Positions 31,110-50,771 of a DNA stretch of 64,000 nt are shown piece by piece. Origin of the DNA: Paenibacillus sp. FSL H7-0357 (GTDB lineage: Bacteria > Bacillota > Bacilli > Paenibacillales > Paenibacillaceae); contig NZ_CP009241.1 of assembly GCF_000758525.1 (NCBI RefSeq), positions 5,332,001-5,396,000 on the forward strand. Reading direction: 5' to 3'. A program made the translations under genes and the position numbers. Under the pieces are notes generated by a model. That model did not search any database, had not been told where the DNA came from, and saw nothing but the letters and a program-made list of their open reading frames with translations. How positions within the stretch are numbered: position 1 is the stretch's first letter; each line of letters begins with the position of its first letter.

Positions 31110-32957
31110 TTACATCGCTGCCTCATCCTTGGCACCCCGAACCAGTTCGCTGTACAGTCCGCCTTGCTGCAGCAGTTCGTCATGTGTGCCCTGCTGCAGC
31201 AAACGTCCGCCCTGCAATACCAGGATACGGTCCGCCGCGCGGATGGTGCCCAGTCTGTGGGCGATCACGAAGCTTGTCCGGCCTTTCATCAGCGCCTGCA
31301 GCCCTTCCTGAATCTTGATTTCAGTCACCGTATCAATGCTGCTGGTCGCCTCATCCAGCACCAGCATGGAAGGATTGGCGAGAATCGCTCTTGCGATCGC
31401 CAGCAGCTGCTTTTGCCCCTGGCTAATCCCGCTGCCGTCCACGGAGAGCATCCGCTCGTAGCCGCCGCGCATCCGCATGATGAAGGAATGGGCATTCGCC
31501 AGCTTCGCCGCCTGCTCCACTTCCTCGTCCGTAGCGTCCAGCCTGCCGTAGCGGATATTGTCGCGGATTGTGCCTTTGAACAAGAAGGAATCCTGCAGCA
31601 CAAAAGCCATCTGGCTGCGCAGACTTTCCCTGCGGATGGACGAAAGATCCATGCCGTCCAGCGTAATGCTTCCTTTGCTCGGATCATAGAACCGCGATAA
31701 GAGGCCTATCAGTGTTGTCTTGCCGGCCCCTGTAGGTCCGACGAGGGCGATCATCTCGCCCGGCTTCGCTTCAAAGCTGATATTCTGCAATGTATCGGCG
31801 CCGCCGTCATAAGAGAAAGAGACGTCCTTGAACGTCACCGCCCCCTCCACCTGTTCCAGCGATACGGCCGCGCCTTCATCCTTGGCTTCAGTCTCTTCGT
31901 CCATAACCTCAAACACCCGCTCCGCCCCGGCAATCGCCGACAGCAGTGTGTTCCACTGGTTCGCCAGATCATTAAGCGGCCGCGTAAATTGACGTGTATA
32001 CTCCACAAAGGCGATGATGACACCGACAGTGACCAGGCCGCGGATCGCCAGCAGGCCGCCCACACCGGCAACAATGGCAAAGCTCAGATTGTTCAGGCCA
32101 TTCATCAGCTTGGGAATAAAGCCGGAAATCGACTGCGCCCAATACCCCGACAGCATAATCCGCGTATTGCGTTCACGGAAACCGGAAATGACCCGTTCCT
32201 CCTGCGAGAACGCCTTGATAATCCGCTGTCCCGACAATGTCTCTTCTATATAGCCGTTGAGCTCGCCCATGCTGCGCTGCCGCTCCTTGAACAGCGGACC
32301 GGTTCGCCGCGTTATCCAGCGCATCCCCAGCGTCATCAGCGGCACTACAATAAACGTCAGCAGCGTAAGCAGCGGGCTGAGCCATAGCATGACACCCACG
32401 GTGCCCAGCAGCGTGAGGACACTGGAGAAAATCTGGATCGCCGAGCTGTTCAGGGTGGAGCTGATATTCTCGATGTCATTGGTCAGGCGGCTCATAATTT
32501 CGCCCTGCTGCCTGCGGTTGAAGAAGGAAATCGGCAAACGGTGCAGGTGCGCGAACAAATCGGTGCGTATCCGGTAGATTGTCTCCTGGGCAATTTCGAT
32601 CATCCAAATATTTTGCAGCCAGGAAGTTAATGAATTGAGCACATATACAAGTGCAAGGGTAATGAGGAAGGTCCCCCAGGTTCTGCCCCCCGATCCCTCT
32701 AAGTAATGATCGACCGCCCGGCTGATCAGATAAGGTCCAAGCAGCGCCAGACCGGAGCTGAACAGCACCATCAGAAGCACGAGGAACAGCTTGGCTTTGC
32801 GCTCGGCAAGATAACTCCAGATCCGTTTCAGCGTAGCCGACCAATTTTTCGCTTTCGCTTGGGGCTTGCGGTTCGAGGCCGCCCCGAAGCTTCTACCCTC
32901 TCCAAGTCCCAGATCCAGCTTCGGATGCTTGAAAGGTTCAATTAATGCTTTGAACAT
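31110..32957 (-). CDS. ABC multidrug exporter half, catalytic (canonical Walker) subunit
   Basis: A 615-residue half-transporter: a six-helix membrane domain (about residues 50-350) and a C-terminal ATPase. Walker A GPTGAGKTT, Walker B MLVLDEATSSID with the catalytic Glu, and H-loop IAHRLGT are intact, but the signature is ISQGQ instead of LSGGQ. Together with the partner gene this gives one normal and one degenerate ATP site, as in BmrC/BmrD-type heterodimers. The ATG at 32957 follows AAGGAGGCGG and overlaps the partner gene by 20 nt. Confidence 0.9.
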   Translation of the reverse strand: MFKALIEPFKHPKLDLGLGEGRSFGAASNRKPQAKAKNWSATLKRIWSYLAERKAKLFLVLLMVLFSSGLALLGPYLISRAVDHYLEGSGGRTWGTFLITLALVYVLNSLTSWLQNIWMIEIAQETIYRIRTDLFAHLHRLPISFFNRRQQGEIMSRLTNDIENISSTLNSSAIQIFSSVLTLLGTVGVMLWLSPLLTLLTFIVVPLMTLGMRWITRRTGPLFKERQRSMGELNGYIEETLSGQRIIKAFSQEERVISGFRERNTRIMLSGYWAQSISGFIPKLMNGLNNLSFAIVAGVGGLLAIRGLVTVGVIIAFVEYTRQFTRPLNDLANQWNTLLSAIAGAERVFEVMDEETEAKDEGAAVSLEQVEGAVTFKDVSFSYDGGADTLQNISFEAKPGEMIALVGPTGAGKTTLIGLLSRFYDPSKGSITLDGMDLSSIRRESLRSQMAFVLQDSFLFKGTIRDNIRYGRLDATDEEVEQAAKLANAHSFIMRMRGGYERMLSVDGSGISQGQKQLLAIARAILANPSMLVLDEATSSIDTVTEIKIQEGLQALMKGRTSFVIAHRLGTIRAADRILVLQGGRLLQQGTHDELLQQGGLYSELVRGAKDEAAM

Positions 32958-34725
32958 GATGCACCGCCTCCTTGCCCTGGGATTCATAAATTTTCCGGTA
33001 GAGGGAAGAGCCGGTCATAAGCTCTCCATGGGTACCTTTGGCGATTAACCGGCCTTCATCCAGCAGCAGGATCAGGTCTGCCGATACCGTGGAGCTGATC
33101 TTCTGGGTAATAAGAAAGGTTGTGCAGGACATATGCTTCAGTTCCTCCAGCAAAAGACCTTCCGTTACTGCATCTAGCGCACTGGTGCTGTCATCCAGAA
33201 TGAGTATCGCCGGCTTTCGCACAATCGCCCGGGCGATAGTCAGCCGCTGCTTTTGCCCGCCGGACAGATTGACCCCCCGCTGCCCCAGCATGGTGTCATA
33301 GCCTTGAGGAAGACCTCTCACCGTTTCGTGGATTTGCGCCGCAGCAGCTGCCCGCTCGATCTCTTCCCGGGTTGCGTGCTCATTCCCCCAGGCAATATTG
33401 TCACGTACCGAGCCGGTGAAGAGCAGTACCTCCTGTGGCACATAACCAATCGCTCCCCTCAGCTTGGCAATATCCAGCTCCGAGCTGTCCACACCGTCAA
33501 TTGAGATCACCCCATGGTTCTGCTCATATAACCGGGGAATCAGTCCGACCAATGAGGATTTCCCGGAGCCGGTTGCCCCCATAATCGCCACCCGTTCTCC
33601 AGATTTCACCTTAAAGGAGATCTCTTCCAGGACTGCGATCTCGCTCCCCGGATAACTGAAGCTGACATTCTCAAATTCAACCTCACCCTGTATAGCATCC
33701 GGTCCGGTATAGTCACTGCGTCCAGAAACACCACGCTTACGCTCATTGGTCTGTACGGCTTGCTCCGCCATTACATCCGGAACTGCATCTGCCGACATCA
33801 CTTCCGCCACCCGCTGCGAAGAAGCAATTGCACGCGAGAACGTCGCCATGATCGAGGACAAGGCTGACATAGCACCTATCGTGCGCAACGAGTAGTTAAT
33901 GACCGCCACGGTCTGTCCCAGGGTTGCTTCCCCTGCAGAAATCTCAATCCTTCCAAACCATAAAACCGCCATAATCCCCGCGTTGACGATCAGCATAATC
34001 AGCGGAGCTGTTGTTTCTGTCAATCGGAGTGCAGCTACAGTCGACTTCATCAGCTCTCCGCTGAATGAAGCGAACCGGCCAATCTCGTGGCCCATACGGA
34101 CAAACACACGAATTAAACGGATGCCGGTCAGATTCTCCTGAATAACGCCGTTTACCCCATCCAGCCGGACTTGCACGCTGCGAAACAAACCTGATGACCT
34201 GCGTATCACCCACGCCAGGAACAGAATCAGCACCGGCAATGTCACCGTCAGCAGCAGCCCCAGCTTCACATGCACGACCAAAGCCATGACCACACTGCCC
34301 AAGACAACAAGCGGCACCCGGGTCATAAACCGCAGCCCCATAAATATTGTATCCTGCAGTTGGGTCACATCTCCGGTAAGACGCGTAATCAGCGACGAGG
34401 TCGGAAAACGGCTGAACACTTCATAGGTGAAGGACTGCACCTTCCCGTACAGCTTGTCCCTGAGATCAAAAGCAAATCCCTGACTGGCATGAGACGCAAA
34501 AAAAGAGCTGAGCACACCCGCCGCAAACGCTATAATCGCGCTTACTGCAAGTACACCGCCCCACAGCCAGACTACTGAATTATCCTTCTCCCTGATCCCA
34601 TTATCGATAATTTTGGAGATCAGCAAAGGCTGCGACAGTTCCACCGAAAGCTCGATAAGCATCATTACCAGGGCAGCGATCGCCGCCACCCGGTATCTTT
34701 TGAGATAAGAAAAAATTAAGTTCAT
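32938..34725 (-). CDS. ABC multidrug exporter half, non-catalytic subunit
   Basis: A 595-residue half-transporter with six membrane helices and an ATPase domain. Walker A GATGSGKSS and signature LSGGQKQR are normal; the catalytic Glu of Walker B is Asp (ILILDDSTSALD) and the switch His is replaced (LITQKISS). These changes define the degenerate site of heterodimeric exporters. The gene is first of the pair and is translationally coupled to the second. Confidence 0.9.
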   Translation of the reverse strand: MNLIFSYLKRYRVAAIAALVMMLIELSVELSQPLLISKIIDNGIREKDNSVVWLWGGVLAVSAIIAFAAGVLSSFFASHASQGFAFDLRDKLYGKVQSFTYEVFSRFPTSSLITRLTGDVTQLQDTIFMGLRFMTRVPLVVLGSVVMALVVHVKLGLLLTVTLPVLILFLAWVIRRSSGLFRSVQVRLDGVNGVIQENLTGIRLIRVFVRMGHEIGRFASFSGELMKSTVAALRLTETTAPLIMLIVNAGIMAVLWFGRIEISAGEATLGQTVAVINYSLRTIGAMSALSSIMATFSRAIASSQRVAEVMSADAVPDVMAEQAVQTNERKRGVSGRSDYTGPDAIQGEVEFENVSFSYPGSEIAVLEEISFKVKSGERVAIMGATGSGKSSLVGLIPRLYEQNHGVISIDGVDSSELDIAKLRGAIGYVPQEVLLFTGSVRDNIAWGNEHATREEIERAAAAAQIHETVRGLPQGYDTMLGQRGVNLSGGQKQRLTIARAIVRKPAILILDDSTSALDAVTEGLLLEELKHMSCTTFLITQKISSTVSADLILLLDEGRLIAKGTHGELMTGSSLYRKIYESQGKEAVHHVQSIN

Positions 34726-36898: not shown

Positions 36899-37028
36899 CT
36901 ATGCTCACCACCGGTGGATCAAGTATTTGCGCCATTTCTTCGCCATAGAGGTACGTGATCCAGTCCAGCGCCCACACGTTTAGGCCATCTTGAAATTCTG
37001 TTTCGTCGTAGTCAATTAGGTTATCCAT
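36870..37028 (-). CDS. Small phage protein (52 residues)
   Basis: An acidic 52-residue protein beginning MDNLIDYDETEFQDGLNVWA. Its ATG overlaps the stop of the 1375-residue protein gene (TGATG) and AAGGA lies 8-9 nt upstream. It runs 29 nt into the next start. No family recognised. Confidence 0.6.
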   Translation of the reverse strand: MDNLIDYDETEFQDGLNVWALDWITYLYGEEMAQILDPPVVSIDVGSHRVAV

Positions 37029-40000
37029 CACTTTTGATCCTTCATTTTCAGGGTTAAGCGCTGAATCATTTCGTTTCTGCGCTTGATTAATGGCTCGATT
37101 TTCAATTGCTTTTGTTTTGAATTTAATGGGCCACGCTCAATTGCTTTAATTGTTTTGTTGATGTCGCTCACTGCCTCAGAAACATCATTTATGCTCTTCA
37201 GTTGTCCTTGCTTCGTGAAAGGCTTCTTGTTAAGCTTTGCAGATGCCTTTTCCTTGGTGAGCTCTTCTTTTTTCTGATAGAACTTATCCATTGCTTTTCC
37301 GCCTTGGTTGGGATCAACAAGGAACGAACGGGTAAATGGTGCCTGTTCAATTGACTTGGCTGGCTTTGCTGTCCTCTCAAATGCCCCTGTCTTGTCTAGG
37401 ATAAAGTCCACTGCATCAGATGCATATTTACCAAGGCCTGCAGTCAATCCCTGCAGTGTATTGTCGATCACTCGCGGTGAACTGAAGTTCTTGAATGTAC
37501 CTTTACCACCAGTAAGCTTCTCTACGCCACCCGCAATGATCCTAGCAGATGTCGTAGTGCGAACCGGGTCATACTGGTCAGAGAACTCTAATCCTTGCTC
37601 AGAACGTGGAATGATAGGACCTTCTTTAAAGAAAGAATAATTTGAGTATCCTTCATAAAGTGGGAGCAATCCAGAAATTTGTGTTGGCAATGAAGCATCT
37701 TTCAATGCTCGCCGTGCAAATCCATCAAACGCTGCAGAGTCCTTGTTAAACACAAAGTCCAGTGCCTTTTCTGGCAGATTAGCAAATACTGCTGCCAAAT
37801 CAAATGGCTTTGGAATACGAGCCACAGTATCTGTACCCGGAACAGCCAGTAACCAGAAGGAGTCCTTCATCCAATCTGGAGCATTAGCAATAGTATCCTT
37901 TTGTGTCTTATTTGCAAACTCGCGGTTAGCGATAAAGATACCTATTGTTGGTGCTGTAACAGAAACAAATCCACGAGACACAACGCCTAAGGGATCATTT
38001 TTAATTGCTCTTATAAGTTTTGATTTACCTTGAACATTAGCATTAAAAAATGAAACAACACGGTTTAGAGGCCTCACACTAGCTCCACCACGGGCAAAAT
38101 CCATCAAATCACGGGACCGGTACGCTGCCTCTTGCTTGCTGGAGCCAGAACGCAGTGCTGCTCGGTACTCCCCGACCTTGGTCGCTGATTCTGTGGTGTC
38201 TGAAATGGCTCTCAATAGTCCAATCAGTGACTTACCGTTAACCAAATTTACAAATTTTTTCGAATTCGGCTGCCTCAGAACCGTTTCTAAGGCTTTTTTG
38301 TGAAGATTTCTATCCATAGAAAGCGTATTTCCGTAAGCTCCCAGGTTATCAATCCACTCTTTGTACAATGGGCCTTTCGTGATGGTCTGGATCAACCCGG
38401 CGCCGAAGTCTGTAATAGGATTGAATCCACTTTCGGAGACAACGAATGCGTTATTGATATCACGGATTGGGTTGCGCAGTGCGAACTCAGGTGTAAGTGT
38501 GGCCCCGGCACGCAGCAGGCTGGCAGGCTTAGATAGGATGTTAATCAGCGTGTTGCTGGACTCTTGGTCCAGGTTCATCAGTGCCTTGTATACCTCAGGC
38601 TGCACCTCATACCGAACTTCCTTGCCATCTACCTTAACCTTGACTACGTTTTTTTCGCCTACTTGCTCGGCATTGGTGAGTTTGCGGAAGAATGTGCCGT
38701 TTCCATCCAGTTCAGCAAGCTTCGGTATCTGCCGGGCCACATTATTGCGTTCGGCAGCATTGACGCTTTGGAAGATGTTCTTCACCATATTTTCCAGCGG
38801 AGCAATGACCTTTCGCTCTGACCCTTGCAACGCCTTAATCGGGCTGGTTACGTTGGCGAGAGCACTCGATAACCCGCCGCCTAATCCTACCTTATCGTTA
38901 TCCATTTCGCGGAACAAAGGGATGTAGTTCTTCCAGCGTTCGCCCAGCACATCATACAGTTCCTTGGATACTACGCCACTGTCCACCAGTTCCTTTAGCA
39001 TATCGCGGTTAACTTTAACTATTTCTTGCTGAGCTGCTATCATTTCAGGTGATGCCAGTTCATCAATGATTGATTTAATCTCTTGATTTGTATAACCGGA
39101 TTTATATCCGGCTGCGTTCACGTCCTTAGCATGCATAGCAAGCACGTAATCCTCTAGGTCTTCGGATGTTTTCCCTATGGCCTCTACTCTCCGAATGACA
39201 GGACCCAGTCTGTCTTGTATGATGAGGCTAGCACGTTCAGGAGCGCCTTTGAAGAGCCTAGCAGCCTTGTACAAGCTGTCTTCAGCACTGGCTAGTTTTC
39301 CCCCACGTACATTCTTTTCAACGGTTTCCAATGCTGCTAGGTCATCTGTGGTTTGTGTCCGCCATTGCTGCCATCTTTCCCCGAAAGGTTTCTTCTTAAC
39401 TTTAACGTCTCTGCTGATTTTCGTTCTGAATGAAGCAGCATCACCTTCGGTCTTGGTGTTAAATTCAATTGCAGCTTTCCCTTCATCACTCACCAATCGT
39501 TCTTGTCGCCGCAATTCCTCCCGGCTCATGCGTAGGATCTTATCTGCATGTGGACGGACAGATTCGCCGAACTCCTTGACCAGTTCCTCTGTGAAGTTTG
39601 CCACTTTGATTGTGCTTTTACCGAGCTTGGAAGCCATGATTACCGCATAATCCGCCCACTCTGGCAACGGGCTTGAGTTCAGGTTGCCTTTACGTTTGGC
39701 AATGCGTTCTCTGGCCGCCTTCTCAGCATCATCAAGGTACGAGTAAACCTTATCCCGTACATTAGGATGATTGACTGCTTGAATTGCTTCCTCGACCTCC
39801 TGCAACTCTGTTTTAACAGGTAATTTCACAGGTTCAGGTGAAGACACTGGTTTAGGCTCCGGCGCTGGAGACGAGTAAAGCACTCTCTCATTCTCCAAGG
39901 ACGACTTGAGCGCATAGTCTATATCCTCTTGCGTTAATTCAGACGCCGGTTTGTTGATGATCTCACGATCCCTGGCACTTATGTTTTCATCAATTGCTGG

Positions 40001-41155
40001 TTTTACTTTTTCTGGTGCTGATTTCACAGCCTCCGGCGCCCTAGCAATCATTTCCTGTACCGGTATATCTGTCTCTATATTTGGATTTCTATTGGTAATG
40101 GATGATGGTGTTTCTATTGCTGCGCCTTCTGGTATACCGGAATTTCTTGCTGCTCGTACCTCAGCAAACTTTTCAAAACCGGATTTAACCGCGCCTCCCA
40201 CTGTACCCAGACCTAGACCAAACCCACCACCAATCAAGGCATTTATACCAATTTCCCGGTTACTATCCTGTTGGTTCATTAGCCCAGAGGCAACGTTTTG
40301 TACAGTTCCGGCCAATCCTTCTGTGAGTCCTCCACGCACGATATTATTCGCCGTAGATGGGCTAACTTTGGGTATGATCTTGGAGATCGCGTTAGTTGCC
40401 TTCATTCCGGCCCCTGTGTTTAAGAGTTTACCTGCGGCTTCATACGGCGCCACGTTTGGACCTGAACCTACAGGTGCACCTGTAGGAGTCAGGAACGGCG
40501 TTACAAAGTTGTTTACCGCATCTGCTACTTTATCCACTACTGTATTTCCACTTGAGTCTTTACGGGTAGCGCCTGAGTTACCACTAAAGGCATTACCTAT
40601 AGCTACCCCAATCGGGTTACCCTCCATGAGATAGTTCATGGCTTGCGCGTACTGTTTTACCACAGGCGGTGCGGATGCGATTTCCTTTTTATTAATCTCG
40701 TACTGTGATATGCCCGGTATCTGCGAAGCATTTGCCGGACCGCCACCAGTTTGATTCAGCAGGCTTGCGGCTGGCAAACGTCCCTGCAGTTGAGTCTGCA
40801 GAGATGTCACCGGTATGTTAAGCGCCGAGGCTGCTGGAAGCTTGCCCTGAAATGCTGCTATCTGTTTGCTTTTTAACTGTTCTGCTTTGAAATCAATTGG
40901 TTGGGTTTTAACCGGCTGCGGCGTAGTGTCGAATCCCTGCACCTGAGGACCCTTGCCAACACTGGATAAGGTACTGCTGAGCAGTGCTTTAGATCGGGCA
41001 TTGTTTTCAGCGGTTGTATCAACAATTTCCCGATTGCGTACAGCAGCAAATGAACTTTCTCGCTGTTCATCTTTTGGCGAGTAAGTACGATTTAGCACAC
41101 GCTGCTTCGCCTCTTCGCCCCGTTTACGATTACGAACCGCGTCAAATGTTGACAT
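37028..41155 (-). CDS. Very large virion-associated protein (LPD38-like polyvalent/ejection protein)
   Basis: A 1375-residue protein. The N-terminal 450 residues are low-complexity (Ser/Ala/Pro/Asn/Gln). Predicted coiled regions follow, and the C-terminal third has the pattern I associate with large polyvalent protein-associated domain LPD38: RNPIRDINNAFVVSESGFNP, FARGGASVRPLNRVVSFFNA, and small hydrophobic segments. It lies between the other internal protein and the lysis genes, where podoviruses encode proteins ejected with the DNA. The ATG at 41155 follows AAGGAG. Its length is about half that of the whole structural block; role as ejection protein is inference. Confidence 0.7.
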   Translation of the reverse strand: MSTFDAVRNRKRGEEAKQRVLNRTYSPKDEQRESSFAAVRNREIVDTTAENNARSKALLSSTLSSVGKGPQVQGFDTTPQPVKTQPIDFKAEQLKSKQIAAFQGKLPAASALNIPVTSLQTQLQGRLPAASLLNQTGGGPANASQIPGISQYEINKKEIASAPPVVKQYAQAMNYLMEGNPIGVAIGNAFSGNSGATRKDSSGNTVVDKVADAVNNFVTPFLTPTGAPVGSGPNVAPYEAAGKLLNTGAGMKATNAISKIIPKVSPSTANNIVRGGLTEGLAGTVQNVASGLMNQQDSNREIGINALIGGGFGLGLGTVGGAVKSGFEKFAEVRAARNSGIPEGAAIETPSSITNRNPNIETDIPVQEMIARAPEAVKSAPEKVKPAIDENISARDREIINKPASELTQEDIDYALKSSLENERVLYSSPAPEPKPVSSPEPVKLPVKTELQEVEEAIQAVNHPNVRDKVYSYLDDAEKAARERIAKRKGNLNSSPLPEWADYAVIMASKLGKSTIKVANFTEELVKEFGESVRPHADKILRMSREELRRQERLVSDEGKAAIEFNTKTEGDAASFRTKISRDVKVKKKPFGERWQQWRTQTTDDLAALETVEKNVRGGKLASAEDSLYKAARLFKGAPERASLIIQDRLGPVIRRVEAIGKTSEDLEDYVLAMHAKDVNAAGYKSGYTNQEIKSIIDELASPEMIAAQQEIVKVNRDMLKELVDSGVVSKELYDVLGERWKNYIPLFREMDNDKVGLGGGLSSALANVTSPIKALQGSERKVIAPLENMVKNIFQSVNAAERNNVARQIPKLAELDGNGTFFRKLTNAEQVGEKNVVKVKVDGKEVRYEVQPEVYKALMNLDQESSNTLINILSKPASLLRAGATLTPEFALRNPIRDINNAFVVSESGFNPITDFGAGLIQTITKGPLYKEWIDNLGAYGNTLSMDRNLHKKALETVLRQPNSKKFVNLVNGKSLIGLLRAISDTTESATKVGEYRAALRSGSSKQEAAYRSRDLMDFARGGASVRPLNRVVSFFNANVQGKSKLIRAIKNDPLGVVSRGFVSVTAPTIGIFIANREFANKTQKDTIANAPDWMKDSFWLLAVPGTDTVARIPKPFDLAAVFANLPEKALDFVFNKDSAAFDGFARRALKDASLPTQISGLLPLYEGYSNYSFFKEGPIIPRSEQGLEFSDQYDPVRTTTSARIIAGGVEKLTGGKGTFKNFSSPRVIDNTLQGLTAGLGKYASDAVDFILDKTGAFERTAKPAKSIEQAPFTRSFLVDPNQGGKAMDKFYQKKEELTKEKASAKLNKKPFTKQGQLKSINDVSEAVSDINKTIKAIERGPLNSKQKQLKIEPLIKRRNEMIQRLTLKMKDQK

Positions 41156-41167
41156 TCCGACCACTCC

Positions 41168-41557
41168 TTAGTACCACTTATTTTTGTCCCAAAATTGAAG
41201 GGCTTTGTAAGGATCCCCATAACGATCTATTACATATTGAAGTCCTTTGCTGGCTTGCTGGTTTGGATCAGACCAGTCTACGCTGTTTCCACCATAATTT
41301 TTACGAGTGCCATTCAAGAACTGATATAGCCCAGCAGCCGTAGATTTAGGATTTTTTGCATTAGGATTAAAGCTGCTCTCCCGCGCCACCAATTCTTCAA
41401 GGGGTTTCTGCCATTCTGCTGGTTTACCTGCTGCTTTTAAGGATTGAGATATAGCCGATGATGCAATCGCATAATTTTTCGGATTAGATTTTGCGTCCGC
41501 CGAAGCTTTGTAGTAATTGTTGTAAGCCCCACTAACCGAAGCTGTGGGGCTACTCAG
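41168..41557 (-). CDS. Lytic transglycosylase domain, made as a -1 frameshift extension of the upstream protein
   Basis: This 129-codon frame encodes a soluble lytic transglycosylase domain: catalytic Glu in LEELVARESSFNPNAKNP, then TAAGLYQFLNGTRKNYGG and a C-terminal RYGDPYKALQFW. It has no ATG, GTG or TTG before a TTG five codons ahead of the catalytic Glu, without a ribosome binding site. It overlaps the end of the 499-residue protein in the -1 frame, where a G GGA AAC slippery site and hairpin lie. I conclude it is the C-terminus of a 628-residue fusion that locally degrades peptidoglycan during DNA entry. Confidence 0.8.
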   Translation of the reverse strand: MSSPTASVSGAYNNYYKASADAKSNPKNYAIASSAISQSLKAAGKPAEWQKPLEELVARESSFNPNAKNPKSTAAGLYQFLNGTRKNYGGNSVDWSDPNQQASKGLQYVIDRYGDPYKALQFWDKNKWY

Positions 41558-41563
41558 TTTCCC
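41525..41563 (-). promoter_or_regulatory. Programmed -1 ribosomal frameshift signal
   Basis: On the minus strand, in the frame of the 499-residue protein: tcG GGA AAC then TGA. The slippery heptamer GGGAAAC (41557-41563) is followed after a 5-nt spacer by an 8-bp stem, AGCCCCAC (41544-41551) with GTGGGGCT (41525-41532), loop 11 nt. Heptamer, spacer and stem fit the standard bacterial/phage signal. Confidence 0.85.
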
Positions 41564-43053
41564 GAGTACGTTTTTAGAAGCGAATCAATTTCTTTCTTTG
41601 TCATGCCCAGCGATAAAAGAATCTGATTTGTTTCAGCATCACTTAATCCAGCATCAACCACAGATTCAAACATTTGCTTACGCTTCGTTGGATCCGCTGT
41701 TATCTTATCGCCCGTTTTCTTTTGCTCACCCGTTAATTCATTTGTGGTATACACGGGTTCAGTGTAAAGACTCTTCATGCTGCTGAGTATTTGATTTGCA
41801 GTAAGACCAGCCGTCGGGCTAGTTCCGGCCTGCTCAGCATCCATTTGTACCCACGCCCGGGCATTATCATCCTGCGACAGCGCAAGATTAGCCTGCTGAT
41901 ACGCCGTTTGATTCTGCTCCTGTAGGACATTAAGCGCATAACTCAACCCGTTTTGTTTAACATCTTCGTCGAATTTCGCTTGCCATTGCTTGTCAGAGAT
42001 TGCGTCACGGGCTTTCTGATAGGAAATTGTTTCCTGTGTATTCTGCTGATTGGCTGTGAGTGGTGTATTTGGATCTGCTGCTTGTCTGTACAGACCTTGC
42101 CAGTCGGATTGCGGTGTAACTGCTCGGCCTGTTGTATTAGCTACTGTCGTGGCTGCATCAAGGTTAGCGTTCTTAACTGATTGGTCTTGCGCTTGGCCTG
42201 CTAGTGTGCGTATACCCGGGTTGTTTGCACTCGCCTGTGCTGCTGTCTTGTCCGCGCTGTAGAAGCTTGGATCAATGCCCAATGACTTAAGCTGTGCACG
42301 GATTGCATCAGCCTCTGTGCTCAACTGTGTACGTGTATCCTTGGTTATTCCCTTTGTCTCAGCCTGCGCTTTAAGCCCTATAAGGTTCTGAATTGCTTGT
42401 TTGGCTTCTGCTGGCATGTAATTACCGGTTACCTGTGACTCTGTAATTGGGTTTTGGAAATCTTGCTGGTTATAATCCTGGTACAGATTACGCTGGTTGC
42501 CTATGCTGTCCTGATACTGCTGGTATGCCTGCTGCGCGTAGATTGGCAGGATATTGTTTGCTACGTTCTCTGCGCTCTGGTTAGCCAGTTGATTAGCTAC
42601 AGTTTCGGAATAAGAGGACTTACCTTGACCCGTTGCCCGGAGTTGCGCGTTTGTATTCTTTTGGTTCACTTGCAAATTCTGTTGGGCCGCCCGAAGTGCC
42701 GCCTGATAGGACGGGTCTGTTTCAGCGTTAAAGGTAAATGGTGTGTTCACCAGATTGCTCTGCGCTGACAAAGCTTGCTCTGTTCGCGGCTGTGAAGTTG
42801 TAGCAACCATCCTCTTAGCTGCTGCTGTAGCCGCTGGCGGAACTGCTGTAGCAACATTGCCACTCCTTACATTGTTGGCCGCTTTGATTGCCGCCTGTGG
42901 TAGTCCGTTGCTCTGTACTGTTGGATTAGGTACGCCAGCCATCATACCGGCTATTGCTCCCGGTGCTGATCCGGCGGTTGATGCGGTCTTATTGGTCTTG
43001 TACGTCTGTACCGCCTTACGTAGATTGTCCAAGTTGAATATGCTCTCTGCCAT
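41554..43053 (-). CDS. Phage internal virion protein (Gln/Asn/Ala-rich)
   Basis: A 499-residue protein with no membrane segment. Residues 20-130 are Ala/Thr/Pro-rich; residues 110-200 are unusually rich in Gln and Asn (AAQQNLQVNQKNTNAQLRA, YAQQAYQQYQDS), as in podoviral internal proteins. The C-terminus has EF-like helical text (AETNQILLSLGMTKKEIDSLL). The ATG follows AAGGAGGGTTATC, the same leader as two other virion genes. Its stop lies directly behind a -1 slippery site, giving a 628-residue form with a transglycosylase domain. Confidence 0.8.
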   Translation of the reverse strand: MAESIFNLDNLRKAVQTYKTNKTASTAGSAPGAIAGMMAGVPNPTVQSNGLPQAAIKAANNVRSGNVATAVPPAATAAAKRMVATTSQPRTEQALSAQSNLVNTPFTFNAETDPSYQAALRAAQQNLQVNQKNTNAQLRATGQGKSSYSETVANQLANQSAENVANNILPIYAQQAYQQYQDSIGNQRNLYQDYNQQDFQNPITESQVTGNYMPAEAKQAIQNLIGLKAQAETKGITKDTRTQLSTEADAIRAQLKSLGIDPSFYSADKTAAQASANNPGIRTLAGQAQDQSVKNANLDAATTVANTTGRAVTPQSDWQGLYRQAADPNTPLTANQQNTQETISYQKARDAISDKQWQAKFDEDVKQNGLSYALNVLQEQNQTAYQQANLALSQDDNARAWVQMDAEQAGTSPTAGLTANQILSSMKSLYTEPVYTTNELTGEQKKTGDKITADPTKRKQMFESVVDAGLSDAETNQILLSLGMTKKEIDSLLKTYSGN

Positions 43054-43202: not shown

Positions 43203-43325
43203 AGAAAAGGAGCCGTGCTGTAACACGACTCCCCTCATGTACAATCCGCATTAAGAGCGGTAGGCGTTGCAAGGGTGATCAAGAATAGACCGATTCCTTA
43301 CTGGGGGGCGGTCTATTTCTTTTTG
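43203..43325 (+). ncRNA. Candidate type I antitoxin RNA
   Basis: A roughly 120-nt transcript predicted from the promoter at 43168 to a terminator formed by AATAGACCG and CGGTCTATT (43284-43316) followed by TCTTTTTG. It holds a 5' hairpin (GGAG-CGTG / CACG-CTCC, 43209-43232) and a CCGC/GCGG hairpin. It overlaps the 3' end of the toxin mRNA on the other strand, as RatA overlaps txpA in B. subtilis. A second plus-strand terminator at 43463-43494 would give a longer, fully overlapping form. Confidence 0.55.
43205..43234 (-). terminator. Terminator-like hairpin downstream of the toxin gene
   Basis: On the minus strand GGAGTCGTG pairs with CACGGCTCC around ttacag (one mismatch), followed by TTTTCTAATT. 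Confidence 0.6.
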
Positions 43326-43402
43326 TTAAAAGATAAAACGAGTATCATCAACGTTGCAAATTGGATCATTAACGTTAACGCATCTTTTATCTCCACAGGC
43401 AT
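43313..43402 (-). CDS. Type I toxin, TxpA/BsrG-like (putative holin-like toxin)
   Basis: A 29-residue single-helix peptide, MPVEIKDALTLMIQFATLMI then LVLSFNKKK. The short acidic start, ALxLMI..ATL core and FNKKK tail match the small putative holin-like toxins of Firmicutes prophages, which insert in the membrane. A very strong AAGGAGGTG precedes the ATG, and a TGCTATAAT extended -10 lies about 50 nt upstream. The opposite strand can encode an antisense RNA across the 3' end. It sits between two virion genes. Confidence 0.75.
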   Translation of the reverse strand: MPVEIKDALTLMIQFATLMILVLSFNKKK

Positions 43403-43454
43403 CACCTCCTTTACAGGAGACTAGCCGACCGCCCTTATGCCATTGTACTGGATT

Positions 43455-44655: not shown

Positions 44656-46062
44656 CTAAAATAGTGGCAGTTGCCGGACTTCACGAACAAGCTCATGAAT
44701 CTTGCAAGGACCTATCATTTCGATTTTGACGCGGACCGTATTTTCCAGCACTACACTACGCACCGGGATGATTACTCGCTGCACGCCGGTTCCTGATCCA
44801 GCTACCGTATGAACTAAGTTGAAGTCGTTTCCGTCCTTGGTCGTGGAAAGATAAACGTTAACCGTTGTACCAACCGGAATTTCAGCATACATCCATAATT
44901 TAATCCATCTCTGCCGTCTTGAAAGCGTGGAGTTGGAGAATGGCTTGGTTATGAAATAAGCCGTTATCGGAGTTCCTGCATCGTCTGACGAGGTGAACAT
45001 TTTAAGGACTCGACCTGTGCTGTCCCCGATATACAACACATCATCCAGCATTAAAAAGAATGTTGGATTAATACCGTTCCACCTACTCCATGAGCTTACG
45101 CCTGTACGGGAGTCGTATACCATAATTTCATTGGTATGTGTGCGGAAATACAATAGATCCGGGTCCGAACCGGCTACGGTATTGGTATCCATGCCTGTGA
45201 GATACCCGCCAACAATTTGTGAGAACTCCTGATTTGGAAGGTTGCCACCAGCATAATCGTATATAGCCCTTTGATCAATGATGCGCATAATACCGCTTTG
45301 TGTTGTAGCAGATTTATTATTCAGTACACCGACATCGTCCGTAATTAGCTTTGTAACAAAGCTTGATGGCACACCACCGTATAACTCGTGCAAGCTGTTA
45401 GGCATTCCGATGGTAAGCTTGGTCAGGCTTCCAGACAGCATATTAACATTCTCGCCTCGGGTGCTTTCAATCGTCTTCCCGTATGATGATCCATCTAAAT
45501 TAGCAAAATCATTCCACACCTCTGGTTGATCAACTGCACAGGCCCTAATCTCATTTCCAAAAGCTACCCAGAGACGATTTTCGTATGTTGTGATGTACTT
45601 TGCTCCTGCTGGTACACCCGACAAATCGACTATCGTAGATCCGTCATAGCGCTTAGCTACGATGCCATTCACGCCTATAAGATTGATGTCTGCCCAATCT
45701 GCGCCTTGGAACCCGGTAAATGCCCACTCAGCGATTGTATCAATACCCGTAAGCAGCGTGGTCCATGTACTTCCGTTCCAGCGTCTCCACGTTCCGTCAT
45801 TCGCGATGATGTGCAACTCACTTTTCCATGCACCCACGCCCAGTATCCGACTGCCAAACGTGCCTAAAACAGAATACCCAGCCCTCACAGAGAGAGCCGG
45901 GTAATCGGATGTAGACATATTTGACATATCGGTGAGTTGTGTTTCGGATATGCTGAGTGGATCAAAGGTATTTAGTCCCTGCCACTGCCTGATACTGATC
46001 GGATCCTGAATGCCTGTCAGCGGCTGGTACTCCGTTCGTTTGCGTGGTACATAGTTAACCAT
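44656..46062 (-). CDS. Phage virion protein with beta-propeller-like repeats
   Basis: A 468-residue protein. Its middle repeats a pattern like SELHIIANDGTWRRWNGSTW, NRLWVAFGNEIRA, DLLYFRTHTNEIMVYDSRTG, which suggests a beta-propeller as in podoviral tail stabilisation/nozzle proteins. It overlaps the adaptor-like gene upstream by 8 nt. The role in the short tail is inferred from position. Confidence 0.65.
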   Translation of the reverse strand: MVNYVPRKRTEYQPLTGIQDPISIRQWQGLNTFDPLSISETQLTDMSNMSTSDYPALSVRAGYSVLGTFGSRILGVGAWKSELHIIANDGTWRRWNGSTWTTLLTGIDTIAEWAFTGFQGADWADINLIGVNGIVAKRYDGSTIVDLSGVPAGAKYITTYENRLWVAFGNEIRACAVDQPEVWNDFANLDGSSYGKTIESTRGENVNMLSGSLTKLTIGMPNSLHELYGGVPSSFVTKLITDDVGVLNNKSATTQSGIMRIIDQRAIYDYAGGNLPNQEFSQIVGGYLTGMDTNTVAGSDPDLLYFRTHTNEIMVYDSRTGVSSWSRWNGINPTFFLMLDDVLYIGDSTGRVLKMFTSSDDAGTPITAYFITKPFSNSTLSRRQRWIKLWMYAEIPVGTTVNVYLSTTKDGNDFNLVHTVAGSGTGVQRVIIPVRSVVLENTVRVKIEMIGPCKIHELVREVRQLPLF

Positions 46063-46618
46063 TGGCGGTCACCCCTGCATATTGTGTAGCAGCCTGTTCC
46101 CATACGGCTCGGTATTGGCTCTCATAGGTTGCAGCCTTTCCGGTGTCGTCCATCGCGTTAGCAAGGTATGCAGCCAATCCCACGTAATAAGTAAAGTGGT
46201 ATTCGTCTGGAGCGTCTGGAACTGCGCCCAGGTTGCCTGTCGTGAATGTTGTTGTCGCTATCCTAGCGTAACGTAAAACGCCCTGCAAACCGTTTGAGTA
46301 CGGCGCAGGACGCAAGGTCAATGTATGGGTGCTGTCGTCAAAGGTATAGGTGTTCTGTAGTGGGTTCGTAGTGCCGGGAACGAGTTCCTTATACTTGATG
46401 ATTCCCACCATCACAAGGTCAATGTTCTTCAGCCGGACCTCAGTTGATATGGAATATGCTGCCTGATCCTTTACCGGCGCGAGTGACAGCACCCTCGGGA
46501 TCTTAACCACGTTGAAAAAGTCATTGTTTAGCGCGTTCAGTGCGACGATTTTGTCTGCAAGTGGGACTTCGTTCGGGACCAGTAGGTCAGCTTCTGATAT
46601 GATATCACTGATTTGCAT
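46055..46618 (-). CDS. Phage head-tail adaptor-like protein
   Basis: A 187-residue protein starting MQISDIISEADLLVPNEVP. The helix-rich ends and a beta middle are typical of short connector or adaptor proteins. The ATG follows AAAGGAGGCC. It is coupled to the propeller-like gene. Function inferred from size and place. Confidence 0.6.
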   Translation of the reverse strand: MQISDIISEADLLVPNEVPLADKIVALNALNNDFFNVVKIPRVLSLAPVKDQAAYSISTEVRLKNIDLVMVGIIKYKELVPGTTNPLQNTYTFDDSTHTLTLRPAPYSNGLQGVLRYARIATTTFTTGNLGAVPDAPDEYHFTYYVGLAAYLANAMDDTGKAATYESQYRAVWEQAATQYAGVTANG

Positions 46619-46671: not shown

Positions 46672-47901
46672 TTAAAAAAGGAGTAATGCCAGCATCAGAA
46701 CTACAGGAGTGCTGAAACATACGATACTGGTCCGCAGTAATTGAATGCTTCTTGTATTTGCTTTCTTTTCCTTCTCTATTACATTGCTTGTGGAAATAGT
46801 GCCATTTAAAAGCCCGGCGTATAAACAAAATGCGTTGAAGTAGAATATCCATCCCTCTAGAACAGGTTCCATAAAGAACGTAACAACAAAGGCGCTGGAT
46901 AAACAGAGGAACAACACTTTCAACTTGTAAGGAATTTCAATTCGATTTAGCTTAACGACATTCAACAAGACAAGTAAAGAAAATATCGCAAGCAACAGAA
47001 AAGGAATAATTCCAGTTTCAAAACCTACATCCAGCCATAAATTGTGAGCATATTGCAGAGGTAGAACAGTTTGTTTTCCTCCACTCGGGAACAAAAATAA
47101 TCCTTTCCATGCCGCGTCCCAAGCTTTGATTCGTGGGTCATCTGCAAAAGACATTCCTGATGTTCTGGATAAAAAAAGCGACCCTTGAGCGTTTTTGTAA
47201 TAGTACATAGCCGCAAACGCTCCAATAACCAAAACGAATATCGACTTTTTCGTAACCCTTTTTAATATAAGGAAATAAGAAGCTATAGACAGAGCAATGA
47301 TCAATATCCCAGTTCTACTTCCCATTTTGGTCATAGAGTATACAGATAATCCGAAGATTATCAAGTATAACAGCTTTTTCCGTTTGGAATCCTTAATGAA
47401 TAGCATGGGAATTAAGGATAACCCCAATGATATATAAGCGTTAATGCCAGTTGCCGAAATTTTGTAACCCCAAACACTTTCAACGCCGCGCCATTGCAGA
47501 AGATCAATGACATTTGATGTGTACACATTTGTAAATCCAAATCCGGTTATGGTCAAAATAGTTAACACAAGAACGTGCATTGTCACTTTTTTAGATTTGT
47601 GCGCTAAATATTTTCCGAGAAAATAAAAAACGCTCGGAAAAACAACGGTTATAAAAATGATGCCAGGAGTCCTTAATTGGTAAGCGTTAAGAAAGTAACC
47701 AAAGACACTACAAAACAGCAGAAGCATAAACTGTTGTATGTTTATTTTTGCTCCGGTTCTGAAGAACATGATAATGACGATTGGAAATAATGCAAATATC
47801 GCGTAGTGCCCAACATTCATAAAGTTTGTGAAATATAACAGTATTAATGACAGGTAAATGAACACACCTTCTCTTTTCTTCTTTCCCTCGTCTAATAACA
47901 A
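46672..47901 (-). CDS. O-antigen ligase/polymerase-like membrane protein (phage cargo)
   Basis: A 409-residue protein with about 10-12 membrane segments, resembling the Wzy_C/O-antigen ligase family: a large outside loop lies between about residues 245 and 295 with LSRTSGMSFADDPRIKAWDAA and YAHNLWLDVGFETGIIPFLL, the part that carries the key Arg and His in that family. I start it at the TTG at 47901, with AGGGGGG 8 nt upstream; the in-frame ATG at 47931 has no ribosome binding site. The gene is AT-rich compared with its neighbours and interrupts the virion genes, so it is probably acquired cargo altering surface glycans. Confidence 0.75.
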   Translation of the reverse strand: MLLDEGKKKREGVFIYLSLILLYFTNFMNVGHYAIFALFPIVIIMFFRTGAKINIQQFMLLLFCSVFGYFLNAYQLRTPGIIFITVVFPSVFYFLGKYLAHKSKKVTMHVLVLTILTITGFGFTNVYTSNVIDLLQWRGVESVWGYKISATGINAYISLGLSLIPMLFIKDSKRKKLLYLIIFGLSVYSMTKMGSRTGILIIALSIASYFLILKRVTKKSIFVLVIGAFAAMYYYKNAQGSLFLSRTSGMSFADDPRIKAWDAAWKGLFLFPSGGKQTVLPLQYAHNLWLDVGFETGIIPFLLLAIFSLLVLLNVVKLNRIEIPYKLKVLFLCLSSAFVVTFFMEPVLEGWIFYFNAFCLYAGLLNGTISTSNVIEKEKKANTRSIQLLRTSIVCFSTPVVLMLALLLF

Positions 47902-48061
47902 ATCATTGACCCCCCTGAAGCTAATTCCCATATTTTACATCAGGAATTATTTTACTTCAATGACATTTTGGTCAGTTGTTCAATCTAAATATCGGATTAC
48001 CTACATAAAAATTGGTCATTGTATTTCCACCATTAAAAGTAGGCAATCTATAGTAACACAA

Positions 48062-50155
48062 TCACACCACAGTGCCGGTCGCGTCTTTCCAACTACTCCC
48101 CCACCACGTTATTGTCTTTTGAAGGGTAGTATCATCATATTTTTTTCCGATATATAGTCCTATGGTTGGTCTGTTTGCGGTTGTTCCGTAAGATGTGTTC
48201 TGCACTTTTGTTCTAATTTGAATAGAATCAGCTGTTGTAGTTAATCCAAATGTTAGTGGATCTAACGGTTCACATGTTACGGAAATCTGTGACCTTATCG
48301 CTCCAGTTTCTACGCCGCTATTTAAAACGTAAACAGTGATGGATTGAAGGGTAATGTCTGAATAGTATATCGTTGCAATTCCTTCCCACAACAAAAACTC
48401 GCTCTTTATATCTGTGGATGGGTTCGGATTTGCTACATCAATAAAATTTCCAATTGACTTATCTCCAAAGTATATGCGGAATGCGCTAAAGGTACTAGAA
48501 ATGGCGGAGACATATATCTTGATGTTCTTAATGGTTTGAAAAGGTGGAAGTGAGAATGTGTTTCCTAGTGCTATCCCACCTTTTGAAAAGTTGAATGTTC
48601 TTTCTATCCGTCGCACTGTTCCTACTGATGCTTGATTGTTGGTTATGTCGAAGTCTATAGTACCGTTACCATTAGAGTGAGTACATTCCTCAAAACGTGC
48701 ACTTTTGAAGATAAGAGCACTTACGAATACATCTTTTATGTTGTATTGAGTTGTCCCATCATAATATTTTATTTCATAACCCGTGCTTAAAAGATCACAG
48801 TATCTAAAAATAGCTCCCAGTGAAGAAAGACCCCCAGTAATAGCTGGAGCAATTGCAATTGGAAGAAGAAACAAAACATTGTTGAATACGACATTTTCAA
48901 AATTAAAGTTAGCAAGTCCATAAGCAGAAACTATTGTTTTAACTAATGATGCACCTGAAGCTAATCTAAGGTTCGCATTCCTCATATTCAATCTTCCAAA
49001 GTTCATATCTGCTAATTTCCACGTTGTCCCAGATGAACCGTATATTTCAATTCGATTATTATCAAAATTAAAATTGGATACGGCCGATTGCGTATAAAAC
49101 CCACCTGATATTTCTGAGTCTGTTTTCAACAGTGTTTCAGAACTGCTCACTGAGAATGAACAATTTCTAACATTAAAATTATCTGACATTTTAGTGAAAT
49201 GGAAATAAACTGACGTTGTGAAACCACCACCATATAATCCACATGAATCGAACGTCCAGTTTACTGATTCAGTATTTTCACCAAGGTATAATGTTTCAAA
49301 GTACCAGAATCTACAATTTAATACTAATGTTTGATCACCCATTCCATACCCTTTATTGTGAAATACTCTTTTTATTTTTGTTGTAAAATTTGGATTGGAT
49401 GTTGAACGGCCATTCCATACTGAAATATTATGATAATTCCCCTTACTTGCATCTGCATAACCAAGAACAGTGGAATTGTTGAAATATTTAAAAATCGTAC
49501 CTCCAATGGATATAGATTGGTTCTCGGAAACAGGTATAATTGTTATCCCACTTACCTGAGGCATCGTGATAGTACCATCAAAATAGAACAATTCATCTGA
49601 TGCGGAAGTGAGTTCCCATATTATTGTTGCATTGTCTCCTATGAGCTTAAAATCGATAGCTGGAGAAGTTCCTGATTGTCCTTCAGCTAAAGGAGAACCA
49701 AAAACATGGTTCCCACGCACTCGGTAAATACCTGCCGGAATGTAAATTTGCATGGAATTAGTTGGTATAGTCTGGACGCTTGGCACCCGTGCTTTATTGT
49801 ATCCATACAAGTTTGCTGCTCGGATTGCATCGTCATCATCCACTTCACCGTCACCTATCGCGCCAAAATTCTTAACGTTAATCACAATGTCCGCCAACTG
49901 TTCATCAACCTGAATGAACTTAGCGACTACCGCAGCCTCGGGATATTGCTGTAACACCTCCGGGCTTAGTTGGTCCGGTCCCACAGCACCGTCAGCTATC
50001 TTAGGCTGCGTTACCTGTTTATCCCCGATGTTATACGTCTGTGATACGTAGGACTCAACCTTATTCTGCGCCCCGCCCGGTGTCTCGTACCGTGGATCGT
50101 CCTCAGCTGCTATGGTAGGCGTTGTGCTTGATCTATACGGATATAAATTTGTCAT
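48062..50155 (-). CDS. Phage tailspike, pectate lyase-like beta-helix protein
   Basis: A 697-residue protein. The N-terminal about 100 residues (GGAQNKVESYVSQTYNIGDK, QPKIADGAVGPDQLSPEV) are a virion-anchoring part. From residue about 92 it has the classic start of pectate-lyase-3 beta-helix spikes (INVKNFGAIGDGEVDDDDAI), with AGIYRVRGNHVFG soon after, then a long parallel beta-helix-like region. The first 300 nt have normal base use while the rest is distinctly AT-rich, so the receptor-binding part was probably exchanged. It likely binds and cleaves a surface glycan. Confidence 0.85.
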   Translation of the reverse strand: MTNLYPYRSSTTPTIAAEDDPRYETPGGAQNKVESYVSQTYNIGDKQVTQPKIADGAVGPDQLSPEVLQQYPEAAVVAKFIQVDEQLADIVINVKNFGAIGDGEVDDDDAIRAANLYGYNKARVPSVQTIPTNSMQIYIPAGIYRVRGNHVFGSPLAEGQSGTSPAIDFKLIGDNATIIWELTSASDELFYFDGTITMPQVSGITIIPVSENQSISIGGTIFKYFNNSTVLGYADASKGNYHNISVWNGRSTSNPNFTTKIKRVFHNKGYGMGDQTLVLNCRFWYFETLYLGENTESVNWTFDSCGLYGGGFTTSVYFHFTKMSDNFNVRNCSFSVSSSETLLKTDSEISGGFYTQSAVSNFNFDNNRIEIYGSSGTTWKLADMNFGRLNMRNANLRLASGASLVKTIVSAYGLANFNFENVVFNNVLFLLPIAIAPAITGGLSSLGAIFRYCDLLSTGYEIKYYDGTTQYNIKDVFVSALIFKSARFEECTHSNGNGTIDFDITNNQASVGTVRRIERTFNFSKGGIALGNTFSLPPFQTIKNIKIYVSAISSTFSAFRIYFGDKSIGNFIDVANPNPSTDIKSEFLLWEGIATIYYSDITLQSITVYVLNSGVETGAIRSQISVTCEPLDPLTFGLTTTADSIQIRTKVQNTSYGTTANRPTIGLYIGKKYDDTTLQKTITWWGSSWKDATGTVV

Positions 50156-50159
50156 ATGC

Positions 50160-50771
50160 TCACCATCTTTCCTTTACTACGTATCGTTCATAACCACTCG
50201 TTGCTGATGTGTACTCTTTAAACAGTTCCTGATACCGGTTATAAAAGTTTCCGTTGTCAGGCATGATGTCCTTCAGCACGCCATATACCAGTAACATATC
50301 AAAGTCAGGATCAAAACCACTGCCATGATTCAAGTCATCCAGCGTCAACTCACCGATGATTGCGGTGTAAAATATCTTGATGCCGTAAAAAGTATCGTAG
50401 ATGGGTGGAGGGTATATGCCGATCTGCCCGGCCACGAAGTAGTAATATGGTCCGCGAGCCTGTTCGTCGAACTGCCTAAGTGGAATCCGGCGCCAGTCAC
50501 GTTCATCATCATCAAATGATTGATTTGTGTATATGGCGTTACGGATAGCGACCTCCGTAACATTACCAGGAGGGCATATAAGGTCCGTCAGTCCATTACC
50601 TGCTGTTAGGTCGAATGCTTGGTTAAGTACGTCAGATTGAGCCTGTGCGGGGCTGAGATTGCGTAACAACCGATCACGTACCTGAGTTATCTTCCTAAGG
50701 ATTGATGTGATCGGCATAGTGTTCTCTGGGATTTTTTCAACAATTTCTTCCACGATTTCCTGTAATAACAT
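50160..50771 (-). CDS. Phage head-tail connector/adaptor-like protein
   Basis: A 203-residue protein, starting MLLQEIVEEIVEKIPENTMP, with an acidic C-terminal half. Size, helix-rich start and position after the capsid genes fit the first adaptor ring below the portal. Ribosome binding site AAGGGGTG. It ends 4 nt before the tailspike start. Role inferred from place. Confidence 0.6.
   Translation of the reverse strand: MLLQEIVEEIVEKIPENTMPITSILRKITQVRDRLLRNLSPAQAQSDVLNQAFDLTAGNGLTDLICPPGNVTEVAIRNAIYTNQSFDDDERDWRRIPLRQFDEQARGPYYYFVAGQIGIYPPPIYDTFYGIKIFYTAIIGELTLDDLNHGSGFDPDFDMLLVYGVLKDIMPDNGNFYNRYQELFKEYTSATSGYERYVVKERW

Follow-up and report, generated by a model that had tools for sequence, protein, structure and literature searches.

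A putative programmed -1 ribosomal frameshift predicted to join a peptidoglycan hydrolase to a virion-module protein in a podovirus-like Paenibacillus prophage

Introduction

Paenibacillus sp. FSL H7-0357 carries a prophage in which a lytic transglycosylase (SLT) domain is encoded in a reading frame without a usable start codon of its own. This frame follows a 499-aa protein of the virion module, here called ORF0 (P0001), and lies in the -1 register relative to it. The question raised by this locus is how the transglycosylase is made. The locus was analyzed within a 64-kb stretch of the genome, referred to as the window, and its junction was compared with those of homologous phages and prophages.

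In phage lambda, the G/GT pair is produced at a slippery heptamer that gives a minor, C-terminally extended product. Virion proteins of Gram-positive phages also have frameshift-extended minor forms, as in the Cps and Tsh proteins of the Listeria phage PSA type. These are capsid and tail tube proteins and are not known to carry a hydrolase.

Podophage capsid proteins can be lengthened by a -1 shift, as in T7 10A/10B, the phiEco32-like phage Privateer, and SU10 (PMC7881722). Privateer uses a GGGAAAG site, and its longer capsid protein was detected by mass spectrometry (PMC7881722). Lytic enzymes are also found on ejection proteins. T7 gp16 carries a transglycosylase that serves DNA entry (PMC8954989 and PMC5380687), and this enzyme is the in-frame N-terminus of gp16 (PMC8954989). 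The PRFect paper names lysins in general among the genes known to contain a frameshift (PMC10885494).

Here, sequence comparison makes it very probable that the virion module of this podovirus-like prophage uses a programmed -1 ribosomal frameshift, which would give a 499-aa form and a 628-aa form bearing the hydrolase.

Results

ORF0 is encoded on the minus strand (41554..43053) and consists of 499 codons followed by the zero-frame stop TGA (41554..41556). Its 3' end reads TCG GGA AAC TGA. The slippery heptamer GGGAAAC (41557..41563) abuts this stop and lies in the X_XXY_YYZ register as G_GGA_AAC. Five nucleotides after the heptamer (spacer TGAGT) is a putative stimulatory hairpin (41525..41551, minus), composed of AGCCCCAC (41551..41544), an 11-nt loop, and GTGGGGCT (41532..41525), which form a perfect 8-bp stem. 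The minimum free energy of the stem region is -18.6 kcal/mol over 59 nt, with a z of -2.77 against 200 shuffles. The -1 frame opens 28 nt 5' of the ORF0 stop and closes with a TAA at 41168. After a slip, it would add 129 aa (41168..41560, minus), giving a predicted frameshift product of 628 aa. The SLT domain in this extension (PF01464, E 1.2e-8) lies at 41219..41437 on the minus strand. The earliest ATG, GTG, or TTG of the -1 frame is a TTG at 41392, already within the domain. The first-pass annotation of this DNA had described a 499-residue protein ending tcG GGA AAC TGA, a GGGAAAC heptamer with a perfect 8-bp stem after 5 nt, and a transglycosylase without a start of its own in the -1 frame, and all three descriptions hold in the sequence.

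Homologues of ORF0 were found on IMG/VR contigs (12 loci in one search and 35 in another) and in genomes. The genome matches comprised 14 of 100 from the genus, the window's own included, 58 of 394 from the family, and 49 of 392 from a sample of the order, and these three sets overlap. Two matches were in named genomes, those of Paenibacillus jilunlii and an uncultured Paenibacillus. A DNA pattern search that contained GGGAAAC gave 18 loci and was the sole source of two junctions, L039 and L043. The short or unaligned matches L026 and L027 were left out before counting. Removal of duplicates left 95 distinct junctions, of which 28 came first from IMG/VR contigs and 67 from genomes. A duplicate was removed only if the 60 nt on either side were identical. 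The junctions are related, so the counts are not independent events. The hydrolase is in the -1 frame in 69 junctions and fused in frame in 4, and neither arrangement is seen in 22. The 69 include 68 recognized by HMM and L081, whose alignment A3 has a single Peptidase_M15_3 match. As background, 532 other stop-to-stop open frames of at least 150 codons were taken from the fetched DNA, not all of which are genes.

In 64 of the 69 homologues with a -1 hydrolase, a heptamer lies immediately before the ORF0 stop; with the pattern-derived L039 and L043 set aside, the figure is 62 of 67. At the stop, the forms are GGGAAAC (36), GGGAAAG (12), GGGGGAG (9), CCCAAAC (3), GGGAAAA (2), AAAAAAC (1), and TTTAAAG (1). 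In three more homologues, the heptamer lies one codon earlier, as GGGGGAG, GGGAAAG, or GTTTTTT. A listed motif is thus present at the stop or one codon before it in 67 of 69, of which ten are GGGGGAG, a non-canonical form, and one is GTTTTTT, neither matching XXXYYYZ. L140 has TTTAAAG three codons upstream of the stop, and L113 has no heptamer by the rule used. Of the 532 control frames, one has a heptamer at its stop. Four have one when the preceding codon is allowed as well, and in none of the 532 is this accompanied by a -1 frame that stays open for 90 codons. A heptamer at the stop is seen in none of the 4 fused homologues and in 1 of the 22 without a recognized hydrolase (L108).

The changes in the heptamer among homologues are mostly from one slippery form to another. 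By the way the 64 sites were defined, the third base preceding the heptamer always fits. Across these sites, the codon contributing X specifies 11 different amino acids, so the heptamer is not explained by a conserved peptide.

Sites diverge in L113, L136, L140, and L152, with GGTTTTT or GTTTTTT, or TTTAAAG, and the stem is weak or absent in some of them. These may be alternative slip types. L108 keeps AAAAAAC and a stem-like repeat, and its -1 frame is closed after 26 codons; it could be either a damaged copy or another change of frame.

The predicted hairpin is also widely shared. The 50 nt past the stop fold with a mean of -18.2 kcal/mol and a z of -2.47 in the 69 junctions, against a z of 0.04 for the control stretch 120 nt further on; the 26 junctions lacking a -1 hydrolase have a z of -0.23. 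A z below -2 is reached by 43 of the 69 junctions, compared with 1 of 69 at the control stretch. A search that allowed G-U pairs found a stem of at least 7 bp in 57 of 69 junctions, compared with 68 among 345 control positions and 8 among the 26 junctions that lack a -1 hydrolase. No 7-bp stem is present in 12 of the 69, and in L102 and L152 the fold is no more stable than in shuffles. The 5' arm begins 3-7 nt after the last sense codon in 48 of 69. Among the 57 stems there are 35 distinct 5' arms; their outer 7 bp form 33 different arm pairs, and each position shows five or six types of pair.

Behind the stop, the -1 frame shows the substitution pattern of a coding sequence under constraint. 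In 33 disjoint pairs, the differences at codon positions 1, 2, and 3 number 864, 608, and 2385. Ka/Ks is 0.02-0.22 in 13 of these pairs, and Ks is saturated and not computable in the other 20. These comparisons indicate that the -1 frame is under purifying selection. Residue E61, which we take to be catalytic, is invariant in all 26 rows of alignment A2. The extension has the hydrolase domain (PF01464) and catalytic residue expected of a virion-associated lysin. Decay of a once fused gene, or an error in sequencing, would mean that the hydrolase is dead. Fused homologues do occur (L082, L084, L110, and L114), and the -1 frame of L108 is shut early, but the selection on the -1 frame and the recurrence of the arrangement in 69 distinct junctions from many assemblies make decay or error barely credible.

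Translational coupling would give a different product, a free hydrolase, if ribosomes terminated at the TGA and restarted nearby, for example at the CTG that overlaps the stop. Like coupled genes, the two frames share a short overlap of a few codons, and AACTGA contains a CTG in the -1 frame. However, the stop is TAA or TAG in 25 of 69 junctions, where the CTG overlap is impossible, and 39 of 69 have no ATG, GTG, or TTG from the opening of the -1 frame to 20 codons past the stop. Such a codon is present by that point in 30 of 69; most of these have only a GTG or TTG, located 17-59 nt beyond the stop. An ATG or GTG stands at or before the stop in six (L023, L063, L081, L117, L119, and L128), so separate initiation could occur there. 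Coupling also leaves the heptamers and stems unexplained, and the four in-frame fusions indicate a joined product. With 39 of 69 junctions lacking a start, reinitiation is rejected as a general route, and we regard coupling as improbable. The +1 frame was likewise rejected as a route, being open for more than 20 codons past the stop in 4 of 69.

Efficient transcriptional slippage needs long A or T runs. A shifted message made in this way, rather than slippage by the ribosome, might be considered for the sites with short homopolymer runs, such as the five G of GGGGGAG or the six A of AAAAAAC. GGGAAAC, GGGAAAG, CCCAAAC, and TTTAAAG have runs of three only, and a hairpin a few nucleotides downstream suits ribosomal stimulation. 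Transcriptional slippage is very improbable and was rejected from the sequence alone.

A -1 ribosomal frameshift is thus well supported by comparison, as the heptamer, the predicted stem, and the open, selected -1 frame are conserved together. The comparison of homologous prophages that the first-pass annotation proposed as a check finds these elements in 60-odd distinct junctions. It shows, as far as sequences can, that selection maintains a -1 slip signal leading into a selected wall hydrolase.

The enzyme behind this signal varies. By class models, five hydrolase classes are found behind the site, with 21 junctions encoding the SLT subclass of the window, 20 a second SLT subclass, 22 a glucosaminidase, 5 a VgrG3-like enzyme, and 1 an M15 peptidase. 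On a quick LG+G4 tree of 73 ORF0 proteins, which has long branches, there are at least 34 changes of class and 4 changes between the frameshift and fused states. L003 (SLT) and L006 (glucosaminidase) are 91% identical over the 600 nt upstream, and their hydrolases are unrelated. The identity spans the heptamer and stem, ends just behind the stem, and resumes at 77% in the gene that follows. Other pairs differ in heptamer and stem as well as in enzyme, as do L011 (GGGGGAG, SLT) and L040 (GGGAAAC, glucosaminidase). Percent identities between the hydrolases themselves, based on few alignment columns, were set aside. These comparisons show the hydrolase behind the predicted frameshift site to be exchangeable between phages.

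Homologues that are simply fused had been named by the first-pass annotation as one of the findings that would speak against frameshifting. In-frame fusions occur in 4 of the 73 hydrolase-bearing homologues, and two of the four retain GGGAAAC or GGGAAAG at the joint, as TCGGGAAAC in L082 and TCGGGAAAG in L114. The joints of L084 and L110 have no heptamer. Since two of four keep the heptamer, the fused homologues look derived from frameshift forms; their existence also implies that a fixed ratio of the two products is not indispensable.

A similar arrangement is found in Page and Pascal, two pageviruses of Bacillus megaterium. The protein encoded downstream of ORF0 is P0002, a large LPD38-domain protein (PHROG 9854; 37028..41155, minus) that starts at an ATG at 41155 after GGAG. 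Over 58% of its length, it shares 45% identity with the LPD38 protein of Bacillus phage Pascal, and Page and its relatives give similar values. In the two pageviruses, the order is a 417-aa protein, NlpC/P60 and SLT domains in the -1 frame from GGGTTTT, and then the LPD38 protein. In Page, the gene upstream is Page_18, and its 3' end reads TCG GGT TTT CTG GGG TAG. This contains the slippery sequence GGGTTTT, shortly before which the -1 frame opens. In Page (L050:2699-3439) and Pascal (L051:2568-3452), the -1 frame read from GGGTTTT matches NlpC/P60 from the first position of the profile.

In the database records, the pagevirus enzyme is a separate gene with its own start, a TTG in Page and a GTG in Pascal, and it is annotated as a "lytic tail protein". 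The annotated TTG of Page removes 39 residues of the NlpC/P60 match, and a correction of this start is suggested. In Pascal, the annotated GTG leaves nearly all of the domain, which counts against a frameshift there. No significant stem was found behind the site in Page or Pascal (z -0.44 and 0.14), and profile comparison detected no homology between ORF0 and Page_18. With neither a significant hairpin nor detectable ORF0 homology, the pageviruses are a parallel, weaker case. The word frameshift is absent from the available text of the pagevirus genome papers (PMC3990757, PMC4559737, PMC4319499, and PMC4424291).

Discussion

The reading that best fits these comparisons is that most ribosomes terminate at the TGA and release the 499-aa protein. 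A fraction would slip one base backward on GGGAAAC, aided by the hairpin 5 nt downstream, and produce the 628-aa protein with a C-terminal peptidoglycan hydrolase. Both forms would end up in the particle and are probably ejection (internal) proteins; the long form may open the thick wall by cutting peptidoglycan during DNA entry. We infer that ribosomes shift, how often they do so, where in the virion the products are located, and what role they have in entry.

What kind of virion protein is ORF0? The module around it contains a P22-like portal, a terminase, a major head protein, and two SU10-type adaptors, which make this a podovirus-type module. A search with the portal gave 8 records, all weak. 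A tail assembly chaperone of the lambda G/GT type was considered for ORF0 and ruled out by the P22-like portal and SU10 adaptors, together with the lack of a tape-measure neighbor; the only tape-measure PHROG hits among the scanned proteins are to the SLT domain itself.

The T7 gene order is gp14-gp15-gp16. ORF0 lies directly before the gp16-like/LPD38 gene of its module, the position of a T7-type ejection protein. A homologue of P0002 in Pelagibacter phage HTVC034P is two genes after an "internal virion protein B-like" gene, so the order around LPD38 in that phage resembles that of T7. It is gene order that suggests ORF0 may be an internal or ejection protein. ORF0 has no Pfam hit above the cut-off and no PHROG match, and tblastn against the phage collection gave no match. 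Profile comparison with HTVC034P gp45 gave no link. The predicted structure of ORF0 is helical and of low confidence (pLDDT 63.8, pTM 0.25), and a viral fold search with this poor model gave no match at E 1e-3. The first-pass annotation had called ORF0 an internal virion protein; its position before the LPD38 gene agrees with that name, and sequence and fold searches gave no confirmation.

The frameshift could also be real and its products be tail or tail-tip proteins or assembly factors. Neither sequence nor fold searches tied ORF0 to a known ejection protein, and the pagevirus annotators placed the enzyme in the tail by name. Against this stand the podovirus-type module, with its P22-like portal and SU10-type adaptors, and the position of ORF0 directly before an LPD38 gene whose surroundings in HTVC034P follow the T7 order. 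We consider a tail or assembly role rather unlikely, and an ejection role for ORF0 and its extended form is preferred.

The proposed mechanism shares a slippery heptamer and a minor C-terminally extended product with the -1 frameshifts of tail assembly chaperones (PMC10885494). In the chaperones, the extension serves tail assembly, whereas here it would be a cell-wall hydrolase, in a short-tailed module, and exchanged between phages. As in T7 10A/10B and the phiEco32-like capsids of Privateer and SU10, a podophage virion protein would exist in two lengths, but in those phages the extension is capsid without an enzyme, and the gene and its position are different. In contrast to T7 gp16, the LPD38 protein of this prophage has no enzyme hit, and its neighbor gains the enzyme in another frame. 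Unlike the prophage, the pageviruses have two enzyme domains and two separate annotated genes, and their upstream protein is not detectably homologous to ORF0. PMC10885494 also cites a study of a lysin with a frameshift; the title of that study points to a phage lysin rather than to a virion-module protein that has gained one.

Frameshift-lengthened podophage capsids and virion lysins are already known. No report of a frameshift-added lysin on a podovirus virion protein was found in full-text searches that covered few subscription papers or in parts of the PRFect paper (PMC10885494). The available text of PMC6937236, on the Paenibacillus larvae podovirus API480, has 0 mentions of frameshift, of transglycosylase, or of internal virion.

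If correct, the proposed mechanism would take programmed frameshifting in phages beyond assembly chaperones and capsids, to the dosing of an enzyme in the DNA-delivery apparatus. It also offers a simple test of how many hydrolase copies per podovirus are required to cross the Gram-positive wall, and a series of enzyme swaps at one joint, such as L003/L006, is now available. The joint itself, a short cassette of heptamer, hairpin, and hydrolase at the end of the presumed ejection protein, may well be a dedicated exchange port, one that has likewise arisen or been inherited in the pageviruses; on balance, we favor this idea. Such a port would allow fast evolution of wall-cutting specificity, while the frameshift would hold the enzyme to a small dose and attach it to the ejection apparatus. 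The pagevirus version would use another heptamer and another enzyme pair.

Several other features of the prophage were observed. The two SU10-adaptor-like genes are separate within the one module, at 46055-46618 and 50160-50771 (minus). Also inside the module, the gene at 46672-47931 (minus) has a weak O-antigen ligase (Wzy_C) match below the cut-off and adjoins a candidate pectate-lyase-like tailspike gene at 48062-50155. The Wzy_C-like gene is possibly involved in serotype conversion. An ABC transporter gene pair (31110-34725, minus) lies beside the amidase end of the prophage. Between two genes of the prophage, at 43210-43449 (minus), lies a type I toxin-antitoxin-like RNA that matches Rfam BsrG with 57.6 bits against a gathering threshold of 55; a small hydrophobic ORF was read in it by eye.
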